Shown in pieces: positions 1-3,606 of a DNA stretch of 64,000 bases; the stretch's first letter is position 1, and each line of letters starts with the position of its first letter. The notes under the pieces were generated by a model. That model did no database searches, was not told where the DNA came from, and worked only from the letters and a program-made list of their open reading frames with translations. The DNA lies in contig JAUMZA010000004.1 of the NCBI GenBank assembly GCA_030528355.1, positions 1 through 64,000 of the forward strand. Direction: 5' to 3'. The DNA comes from Candidatus Saccharimonadota bacterium (GTDB lineage Bacteria > Patescibacteriota > Saccharimonadia > Saccharimonadales > Saccharimonadaceae). The position numbers and the translations under genes are program-made.

Positions 1-141
1 GTTAACCCAGCTAATGCGTTGGTGCTCATTAACGAATCAGCCGAAAACTACCAAGACCTTGCCGCCGCCCGAGAACACATTGCTACTGCCGTATACGACA
101 AGTTTAAGATACAGATTGAGCAAGAGCCGGTAGAAATCTAA
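1..141 (+). CDS. murB: UDP-N-acetylenolpyruvoylglucosamine reductase (MurB), C-terminal end only
   Basis: This is the last 46 codons of a gene that starts before the window. The frame is open from base 1 and ends in TAA. The tail begins with NPANALVLIN, followed by a helical stretch and a closing segment of the type KFKIQIEQEPVEI. That pattern fits the C-terminal substrate-binding domain of MurB, where a VLIN strand is followed by an alpha helix and a basic beta strand ending in EV(R/E)I. MurB reduces enolpyruvyl-UDP-GlcNAc to UDP-MurNAc, the step after MurA. A MurA-type gene lies 2 kb downstream, which supports the call. Only the tail is visible, so the family call is moderate. Confidence 0.65.
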   Translation, partial: VNPANALVLINESAENYQDLAAAREHIATAVYDKFKIQIEQEPVEI

Positions 142-768: not shown

Positions 769-1965
769 TTATCTTCGCAATATGTCTACAATCTGGCAGG
801 CCACCCGTGTAAAGTCATCTTCGTTATAGCCACGGGTGGTCATAGCTGGGGTGCCAAGCCGCAAGCCGCCAGGGCGGTATGGTGGTAATGTATCGTGCGG
901 GATGGCATTGGCGTTGGCGGTAATGCCCGCAGCCTCTAGCCTATCTTGGGCTTCTTTACCATCAATCCCAAAGCTGGTGTATACGTCTATTAGTAGCAGG
1001 TGATTACTCGTACCGCCAGTAATGAGCGTGACGCTCTTATCTAAAAATACCTTTGCCATCGCCTGGGCATTACGCACCACTCGGCATGCGTAATCTACAA
1101 ACTCTGGCTGCAACGCCTCACCAAAGGCCACGGCTTTAGCGGCAATAGTGTGCATGTGCGGCCCACCTTGCGTACCAGGAAACACCGCTCTATCAATCAG
1201 TGTTGGGATATTTTCAATCGTTTTAGCTGGTTTTTTAAGCGGATTACCCACCTTACCACAGCTAAGGATTAGCCCGCCACGAGGCCCTCGCAAAGTTTTA
1301 TGCGTAGTGGTGGTCATGACATGGAAACCCTCGTCGAGCGGATTAACGGCAATACCGCCCGCAATAAGCCCGGCGATATGGCTCATGTCTGCTACCAACA
1401 AGGCGCCGATCTCATTACCAATTTGTACAAACTTTTTATAATCAAGCTCACGTGGATAGGCACTAAACCCTGCCATAATGAGCTTTGGCTTGTGGGCAAT
1501 AGCTAGCCTATGTAGCTCATCGTAATCAATCTCACCAGTTGTAACATCCTTCATGCCATAGCGAATAAAATTATATTCACGGGCACTGCGAGTTACCGGT
1601 GCTCCGTGGGTAAGATGGCCGCCGTGACTTAAATCCATCGCCAGCACTGTGTCGCCAGGCTCAAGCCAGGCGTAATAGACTGCCTCGTTAGCCTGTGCCC
1701 CAGAATGTGGCTGCACATTTGCATGGTCGGCATGAAACAGCTGCTTGGCACGGTCAATCGCTAATTGCTCGAGCTTGTCAGTGTTGGTTTGCCCGCCATA
1801 ATACCGCCGGCCTGGGTAGCCTTCGCTATATTTATTTGTAAATACACTGCCTAACGCCGCCCGCACATCATGTGATACATAATTTTCGCTTGGAATTAGT
1901 TCTATTGCCTGCTGCTGCCGGACCGTTTCGGCCGCAATGAGTTCACTCACCTGCTTATCTTGCAT
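769..1965 (-). CDS. glyA: Serine hydroxymethyltransferase
   Basis: GlyA is a PLP enzyme that interconverts serine and glycine and supplies 5,10-methylene-tetrahydrofolate in the cytosol. The 398-residue length is typical, slightly short at the C-terminus. Visible family signatures include the N-terminal ELIPSEN and the YPGRRYYGG loop. The PLP-lysine motif TTTTHKTLRGPRGG places the Schiff-base lysine at about residue 223. The ATG is preceded by AAAGGAGAT at good spacing, so the start is secure. It is monocistronic and convergent with the prepilin. Glycine made here could feed the one-carbon pool and protein synthesis; no other folate genes are in the window. Confidence 0.97.
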   Translation of the reverse strand: MQDKQVSELIAAETVRQQQAIELIPSENYVSHDVRAALGSVFTNKYSEGYPGRRYYGGQTNTDKLEQLAIDRAKQLFHADHANVQPHSGAQANEAVYYAWLEPGDTVLAMDLSHGGHLTHGAPVTRSAREYNFIRYGMKDVTTGEIDYDELHRLAIAHKPKLIMAGFSAYPRELDYKKFVQIGNEIGALLVADMSHIAGLIAGGIAVNPLDEGFHVMTTTTHKTLRGPRGGLILSCGKVGNPLKKPAKTIENIPTLIDRAVFPGTQGGPHMHTIAAKAVAFGEALQPEFVDYACRVVRNAQAMAKVFLDKSVTLITGGTSNHLLLIDVYTSFGIDGKEAQDRLEAAGITANANAIPHDTLPPYRPGGLRLGTPAMTTRGYNEDDFTRVACQIVDILRR

Positions 1966-2079
1966 AACTATCTCCTTTATTGTTAGTGTACCACGGATAT
2001 GCAGCGATGATAAGCCGTGCGACCCGCTACTACAGAGCTATATTATTTGCAATTATATCAAGTATGATATACTGATACT

Positions 2080-3606
2080 ATGAACTCTGATACATACCTT
2101 GAAAAAATTGGCAATCTTATTCAAGAAACCCGCACCCTGCGTGGCATGACACAAACGCAGTTGGCGGATGCCTTGGGTACCAGCCAGTCAGCTATCAACC
2201 GTATCGAAAAAGGCGGGCAAAATATCAGCCTTGAAATGATCGCCCGCATCGGCGAGGTGCTGGCACGGCCGATTGTTAATCTTAATCAATCAGGTAAAAT
2301 CAACTTTAAGGTGCAAGGCGGCCACGAGCTGTCTGGCGACATCACTATTAAAACCAGCAAGAACGCAGCAGTTGCCTTACTGTGTGCAAGTTTGCTCAAT
2401 AAAGGCACTACCACGCTGCGGCGAGTTGCCAAGATTGAAGAAGTAAACCGCATTATCGAGGTACTCCACAGTATTGGCGTAAAAACCCGCTGGGAAAATG
2501 AATCCGATTTGGTAATCACCCCGCCTCGCACGCTTAATCTTGCAACAATCGATGTAGCCGCCGCCAAGCGTACTCGTTCGATTATTATGTTTATGGGGCC
2601 GCTACTGCACCAATATAACTTTTTTAGCCTGCCATTTGCTGGCGGCTGCAATTTAGGCACTCGCACTGTTGAGCCACATCTAGCCGGCCTAGCTCCGTTT
2701 GGGCTAGAAGTAAAAGCACTGACCGAAAGCTACCAAGTTACGGCTAACCCAACCTCACCCGAACGAGCCATTCTGCTGACCGAACGTGGCGATACCGTTA
2801 CCGAAAATGTCTTGATGGCAGCTGCACTCCACCCAGGCACCGTTACCATCCGCAACGCTAGCCCTAACTACATGGTGCAAGATTTGTGCTTCTTCCTTGA
2901 AAAACTTGGAGTAAAAATTGAAGGTATTGGTACCACCACGCTCCGAGTAACCGGCGTACGTAGCATCGATACCAATGTAGAGTACTTCCCATCTGAAGAC
3001 CCAATTGAAGCTATGAGTTTTATCGCAGCTGGTGCCGTAACCAGCTCCGAAATCACCATCAAGCGAGCACCAATTGAGTTTTTAGAAATTGAATTAGCTA
3101 TTTTGGCCGGCATGGGGCTGCAATACGATCTCACGCCTGAGTATATGGCCGCAAATGGCAACACTCGCCTGGTAGATATTCATCTCAAAAAATCCGTGCT
3201 ACATGCACCAAAAGATAAACTACACAGCATGCCATTCCCTGGGGTAAATATGGACAACTTGCCGTTTCTTGGCTTGATTGCCACCGTAGCCCAAGGCCGC
3301 ACATTGGTGCATGACTGGAGTTACGAAAACCGTGCTATCTATTTTACCGAACTTACTAAGCTCGGGGCAAACATTGAGCTAGTTGACCCGCACCGTGTTT
3401 ACATTACCGGCACCACTAAATGGAAACCAGCCGATGTAGTGGCACCACCAGCCTTACGCCCAAGTGTGGTGATACTGCTGGCTATGCTGGCTGCACCAGG
3501 TGTGTCAATTTTGCGTGATGTATATTCAATCAACCGTGGCTACGAAGAGCTAGCTGCCCGCCTTAACAGCCTTGGTGCCCAGATTGAAACTATCCACGAA
3601 TTATAA
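2080..3606 (+). CDS. murA: XRE-family helix-turn-helix domain fused to UDP-GlcNAc 1-carboxyvinyltransferase (MurA)
   Basis: Residues about 8-65 form an XRE/Cro-type HTH with the typical LRGMTQTQLADALGTSQS turn. From about residue 74 on, the protein is a MurA/EPSP-synthase-like enzyme of about 430 residues, which is near full family length. The KN pair at 94-95, the active-site cysteine in AGGCNLG (Cys190), the conserved Asp in PGVNMDN and the NRGYEEL segment are all present. It should therefore be catalytically competent in the first committed step of peptidoglycan synthesis and should be fosfomycin-sensitive. A -10 TATACT (2068-2073) lies 6 bases before the ATG with no Shine-Dalgarno site, so a leaderless mRNA is likely. 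That start keeps the HTH in frame, so the fusion is not an annotation artefact. DNA binding by the HTH is inferred. Confidence 0.92.
   Translation: MNSDTYLEKIGNLIQETRTLRGMTQTQLADALGTSQSAINRIEKGGQNISLEMIARIGEVLARPIVNLNQSGKINFKVQGGHELSGDITIKTSKNAAVALLCASLLNKGTTTLRRVAKIEEVNRIIEVLHSIGVKTRWENESDLVITPPRTLNLATIDVAAAKRTRSIIMFMGPLLHQYNFFSLPFAGGCNLGTRTVEPHLAGLAPFGLEVKALTESYQVTANPTSPERAILLTERGDTVTENVLMAAALHPGTVTIRNASPNYMVQDLCFFLEKLGVKIEGIGTTTLRVTGVRSIDTNVEYFPSEDPIEAMSFIAAGAVTSSEITIKRAPIEFLEIELAILAGMGLQYDLTPEYMAANGNTRLVDIHLKKSVLHAPKDKLHSMPFPGVNMDNLPFLGLIATVAQGRTLVHDWSYENRAIYFTELTKLGANIELVDPHRVYITGTTKWKPADVVAPPALRPSVVILLAMLAAPGVSILRDVYSINRGYEELAARLNSLGAQIETIHEL

Follow-up and report, generated by a model that had tools for sequence, protein, structure and literature searches.

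The analysed stretch (the window) comprises 64,000 nucleotides of contig JAUMZA010000004.1 from a Candidatus Saccharimonadota bacterium. Near its beginning lies an HTH-MurA fusion gene (2080..3606, plus strand; 508 codons plus stop), which encodes a protein of 508 aa and is the only PF00275 gene of the genome. The XRE/HTH_3 DNA-binding domain occupies residues about 10-62 (2107..2265, plus strand), as placed by Pfam HTH_3 (residues 14-65, E 1.9e-13) and by four helices of the AlphaFold model (residues 3-20, 25-32, 36-43 and 51-61). Pfam and the model agree on a Cro/C1-type HTH; its recognition helix QSAINRIE (residues 36-43; 2185..2208, plus strand) is nearly invariant across the fused clade. 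The relatives of this HTH by NCBIfam include the Y4mF family and PRK08154, a regulator of anaerobic benzoate catabolism. A variable linker (residues 63-74; 2266..2301, plus strand; pLDDT <50 at residues 64-71) connects it to the MurA (UDP-GlcNAc enolpyruvyl transferase) domain at residues 75-505 (2302..3594, plus strand), which was delimited by Pfam, NCBIfam, alignments and Foldseek. The Pfam EPSP_synthase/MurA match covers residues 78-492 (E 3.1e-44). The AlphaFold model (mean pLDDT 87.7, pTM 0.81) contains the MurA fold, and its best PDB matches in Foldseek were MurA throughout; a search of the solved MurA structures by sequence gave no match to the HTH region. The mean pairwise identity was highest in the HTH recognition region (68%), followed by the MurA domain (60%) and the linker (26%). 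An earlier note on this DNA had described a complete XRE domain preceding MurA in one frame; Pfam and the architecture of the relatives confirm this, and both domains are intact by sequence within one polypeptide.

MurA catalyzes the committed, first step of peptidoglycan synthesis and is the target of fosfomycin. The catalytic residues named in the earlier note were verified for Lys94-Asn95 and for Cys190 (codon 2647-2649, plus strand), which lies in GGCNLGTR. Asp392 also aligns with the catalytic Asp of the standard MurA, but the motif around it differs, since it reads PGvNmDNLP and not FPTD. This replacement of FPTD by PGxNxDNLP (window 3229-3267, residues 384-396) is possibly a family-specific change close to the active site. 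The residues Lys94, Asn95, Arg166, Cys190, Arg195, His200, Glu242, Asp307, Asp392, Arg418, Arg460 and Arg486 were all invariant across two alignments of the family, which comprised 28 and 38 sequences. The protein passed the NCBIfam model PRK09369 (MurA; 325.1 bits, cut-off 297); whereas its score of 307.7 bits for the equivalog TIGR01072 (murA) fell below the cut-off of 392.7, which is a score threshold and no biochemical feature, and thus marks a divergent MurA. Compared with the MurA of E. coli and E. cloacae (PRK09369), the protein shares the full-length fold and all the catalytic residues checked, including the Cys targeted by fosfomycin; it differs in the motif around Asp392, in its sub-threshold TIGR01072 score, and in the additional N-terminal XRE domain with its own putative operator. 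The fusion is the sole MurA or superfamily gene of the window genome (835 kb, 96.6% complete), so that any peptidoglycan synthesis in this cell must depend on it for the MurA step. A murB gene is also found in this genome, at a contig end.

The survey of MurA homologues that the earlier note had proposed revealed the fusion in dozens of genomes from two phyla. Within the phylum of the window, it was present in 51 of 380 sampled genomes, the window's own included, where a gene was counted as fused when the match began at query residue 1-14, so that the HTH was covered. The possibility that close relatives lack the HTH did not hold, as it was found in all 24 genomes of the same family and in all eight others of the same order. 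Fused matches elsewhere in the phylum belong to further families, with identities down to 51%; in contrast, the matches of unfused close relatives begin at residues 64-77, without the HTH. The fusion also occurs in Actinobacteria, with 60-67% identity among the matches listed (mostly 63-66% over residues 3-508), and 10 of 198 evenly drawn actinobacterial genomes carry it. A scan of named genomes showed the fusion at least in Candidatus Saccharibacteria and, among Actinobacteria, in Streptomyces, Kitasatospora, Nocardioides, Janibacter, Mumia, Humibacillus, Intrasporangium, Allokutzneria and others. In two of the five actinobacterial genomes checked, those of Janibacter and Nocardioides, the fusion is the only MurA and the remaining matches are weak and AroA-like, which argues for full enzymatic function. 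From its status as the sole MurA in these two and in the window genome, the HTH-MurA protein is probably catalytically active.

This distribution also bears on the start of the gene. The earlier note had taken a leaderless start as confirmation that the HTH is part of the protein. The leaderless start itself is plausible, as there is no Shine-Dalgarno sequence ahead of the gene and the -10 element is close to the ATG; however, it alone does not prove the HTH start. It is the conservation among relatives that places the HTH in the protein, and its start is secure in most of them because an in-frame stop lies a few codons upstream of the ATG preceding the HTH. A mis-called start, or a fusion peculiar to one assembly, is refuted by these upstream stops and by the surveys; dozens of independent genomes share the architecture, as do cultured actinobacterial isolates, and the chance of such an artefact is negligible. 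Judged from these comparisons, the fusion is old and maintained under selection.

The two Streptomyces genomes checked each have one HTH-MurA beside a canonical MurA; whereas the window genome has no second MurA. Among the matches listed, the Streptomyces copies reach 63-65% identity across residues 3-508, and they have the HTH as well as the operator. The Streptomyces protein MurA2 (SCO5998, vnz_28735, sven5810) most likely belongs to the same family, although these locus tags were equated with HTH-MurA on the ground that it is the second MurA described (PMC12161575). The murA2 gene has been studied by overexpression (PMC11005364).

Comparison of the upstream regions revealed a perfect palindrome, TATATCA-AGTA-TGATATA (2054..2071), which is a putative operator with the core ATATCA-N4-TGATAT at 2055-2070. 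The promoter was called as TTTGCA-16-TATACT with a TG, and its extended -10 (TGaTATACT, 2065..2073, plus strand) overlaps the right arm of the palindrome. It lies 6 nt from the start codon, in a leaderless-type arrangement, so that transcription is expected to start at or next to the ATG. In the aligned upstream regions, the palindrome stands directly upstream of the start codon in nearly every fused gene. With up to two mismatches in 12 allowed, it was found within 120 nt upstream of 39 of the 51 fused genes, against 4.9% of dinucleotide shuffles and none of the 19 unfused relatives. The position was between -30 and -25 in 110 of 131 genes, and the arms were complementary in all six pairs in 78 genes and in five pairs in 34. 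In the genomes of the family, the information is near-maximal in both arms and low conservation is confined to the spacer and flanks; a TTGA-like -35 is located immediately upstream. The site of the GC-rich Actinobacteria is ATCTCA-N4-TGAGAT at -28, followed by a TAnnnT-like -10, with the same geometry as in the window. Seven fused loci of the family genera g3 and g9 (L019-L023, L025 and L026) keep the HTH and have an asymmetric element with an altered left arm, TATkCA-N5-TGATATA, at the unchanged position; a few further fused genes score poorly for the operator.

The murA gene is divergent from glyA (769-1965, minus strand) across the intergenic region 1966-2079, an arrangement also seen in L162 and L177, and the operator could affect glyA too. 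Several unfused murA genes of Patescibacteria (L054, L057 and L059) begin a few nucleotides after a tRNA-like sequence, which suggests co-transcription with the tRNA.

The idea of the earlier note that the promoter of the gene itself (2040-2079) is a target is strongly supported by comparative genomics, as the predicted operator is shared among the relatives and covaries with the HTH. As the motif was discovered in the same promoters, near relatives do not give an independent test of it; the fairer checks come from distant relatives, from Actinobacteria and from counts over whole genomes. The palindrome is nearly private to murA: the murA promoter was matched in 14 of 14 family genomes, with 0-2 other matches in each (0.7-1.1 Mb); in five further genomes, murA was the only perfect match. 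Among the distant genomes, 10 of 11 matches were at murA, and two Streptomyces genomes of 9.1 and 9.7 Mb each contain the perfect site once, at the HTH-MurA gene. Moreover, the site changes together with the protein. Where the recognition helix reads TTQSA (L033, L034) or STQSA (L043) and not TSQSA, the arm ATATCA becomes ATAGCA in one or both halves of the site, which is again the only one of its kind genome-wide. The locus L052 has a decayed HTH (GIDTSLLTEIE), and the operator is absent. Across the tree, the operator tracks the HTH in four of four independent contrasts, with none contrary, a number with which a sign test cannot reach p<0.05. These comparisons strongly support the palindrome as the putative cognate operator of the HTH.

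A different explanation is that the palindrome is merely a promoter element, in which the extended -10 TGATATAAT happens to be mirrored in the spacer, or that a different regulator binds there; the HTH would then be vestigial. The right arm does coincide with the extended -10; however, the left arm is conserved nearly as well, the palindrome remains perfect though its letters change between clades, and it is absent from the unfused relatives and rare elsewhere in the genomes. Other regulators have been described or predicted at the Streptomyces gene. For example, murA2 has been studied as a BldM-WhiI target whose promoter is bound by these proteins (PMC4125116), as a SigB-dependent gene (PMC8346170), and as a gene adjoining aconitase with a predicted DmdR1 site (PMC12161575). 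A vestigial HTH is nevertheless difficult to reconcile with a recognition region that is more conserved than the enzyme, and this whole explanation is considered unlikely.

Phylogenetic trees were reconstructed from the MurA domain alone and rooted on unfused patescibacterial MurAs. The Actinobacteria formed one clade (support 100) inside the order-level clade of the window (98-99). A tree that kept the order together without the Actinobacteria was rejected (p-AU 4.5e-5; 37-row set including the neighbouring family f42); whereas a tree that kept the window's family together was not (p-AU 0.70). A placement of the Actinobacteria inside the family was therefore dropped; a position as its sister group, within the order-level clade, describes them better. 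The HTH state changes six times on the best tree, and the HTH and operator were lost together several times within Patescibacteria. The simplest account suggested by the tree is a single transfer, operator included, from a Saccharibacteria-like donor to the ancestor of several actinobacterial families. Actinobacteria are the hosts on which Saccharibacteria live, which makes contact between donor and recipient likely. The tree thus suggests gene flow from relatives of epibiont Saccharibacteria into their host phylum, with the cis-regulatory site included.

An HTH on MurA, and a matching site on its own promoter in distant bacteria, make it very probable that the enzyme controls the gene that encodes it. 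It is highly likely that the gene encodes a bifunctional, autoregulated MurA, both an enzyme and an autorepressor of its own promoter. In the proposed mechanism, the XRE domains of two MurA molecules would bind the palindrome 2054-2071 as a dimer and cover the extended -10 of the leaderless promoter. As the right arm lies over this element, the bound dimer should block RNA polymerase, and abundant enzyme would turn transcription off (negative autoregulation). Binding as a dimer, and repression rather than activation, are what we infer from the sequence features, with the overlap of the promoter suggesting repression.

What such a repressor would sense can be read in two ways. It is quite possible, just short of an even chance, that the HTH acts as a plain thermostat for the protein amount, with the ligand state irrelevant. 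One conserved target per genome at its own promoter and a flexible linker are consistent with this, as is the behaviour typical of XRE antitoxin-like repressors, which are relatives of this HTH (Y4mF family, PRK08154). Plain autorepression alone leaves the fusion to an enzyme unexplained, though a fusion would be the simplest sensor of enzyme amount. The earlier note had suggested a trigger enzyme, with transcription responding to occupancy by UDP-GlcNAc, PEP or product. In such a protein, the binding of UDP-GlcNAc (or PEP, or the product) would close the MurA domain and alter the grip of the HTH on the operator, so that murA transcription would follow the precursor supply. This would extend the autorepressor explanation and not replace it. 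MurA undergoes a large open-to-closed movement when UDP-GlcNAc binds, which makes a ligand effect plausible, and even distant relatives retain the HTH on an enzyme that is apparently active and binds its ligands. However, the linker is short and varies among relatives, and the model gives it low confidence, so that no conserved coupling surface is evident. A ligand effect thus might exist, at somewhat less than an even chance. The fullest form of the trigger idea is more tentative: a ligand-gated enzyme-repressor reading UDP-GlcNAc/PEP occupancy might have originated in Patescibacteria and been passed with its operator from a Saccharibacteria-like lineage to Actinobacteria, where it would have replaced the ordinary MurA in some genera and become the MurA2 of Streptomyces.

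Several known proteins are comparable with an autoregulated MurA. In BirA, PutA and NadR, one polypeptide is both a pathway enzyme and a DNA-binding regulator of the pathway or of its own gene; for example, the regulation by BirA follows biotinyl-AMP. Their folds and pathways differ from those of HTH-MurA, and ligand switching is experimentally shown there; whereas HTH-MurA is known from sequence. On this analogy, the best reading of HTH-MurA is an enzyme-autorepressor like BirA or PutA, for peptidoglycan. A further precedent, which also favours a trigger enzyme, is BzdR, an XRE HTH joined to a shikimate kinase-like domain that has lost catalysis and senses benzoyl-CoA; its authors modelled the missing link with a synthetic chimera of an HTH and shikimate kinase (PMC3602430). 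BzdR and HTH-MurA are alike in joining an XRE HTH to an enzyme-derived domain, and the HTH of the latter matches PRK08154; however, the kinase domain of BzdR is catalytically lost, whereas the enzyme of HTH-MurA is intact by sequence. HTH-MurA therefore looks like a natural version of the bifunctional missing link that these authors modelled. If true, nature would itself supply the intermediate that was built synthetically for BzdR, in which a DNA-binding domain is attached to an active enzyme.

The general idea of enzyme-repressors is thus already known from BirA, PutA, NadR and BzdR, and domain databases may already show the combination of HTH and MurA. What this combination means seems not to have been described in the open literature covered here: the searches of open-access papers turned up neither a MurA with an HTH nor a MurA that regulates itself, and the accessible parts of the four murA2 papers (PMC4125116, PMC8346170, PMC12161575, PMC11005364) make no mention of an HTH or self-regulation. 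To our knowledge, most known control of MurA acts on the protein, an example being PASTA-kinase signalling in Enterococcus (PMC12077105). If the autorepressor reading is true, there would be direct transcriptional feedback by MurA itself, conserved across two phyla, and such simple feedback is directly testable in Streptomyces.

Other sites occur in some genomes. The window genome contains two further perfect sites, inside sodA and upstream of tag, and a site with one mismatch upstream of a 91-aa ORF, so that more targets are possible. None of these is a wall gene, and a cell-wall regulon in this genome was therefore rejected. The murB gene was also rejected as a general target. It was found in 30 of 30 genomes searched; among the readable murB promoters (the scan covered all but the last nine genomes, and a start was placed in all but four), the operator was seen only in G168, where an operator-like site (L123:2977-2994) lies 9 bp ahead of the start of murB, which encodes 348 aa. 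The genome of L177, a near relative of G168, has the murA site only. The extra targets predicted in this way vary between genomes, and the constant one is the HTH-MurA gene itself.

An operator-like TATACCA-N4-TGATATA with one mismatch is common to two genera (L127, site 3063-3080, and L130, site 3013-3030; genomes G303 and G123), and lies about 280-300 bp upstream of an nrdR-like gene. In addition, L131 (G296:C39) contains a stand-alone HigA-like HTH (ORF 3099-3395) with the recognition helix GTTQSNVARL, and the palindrome ATATCTTATATGATAT upstream of it (about 2971-2986) is near-identical to the operator. The HTH of the fusion and its operator may have been captured together from a source resembling this protein.
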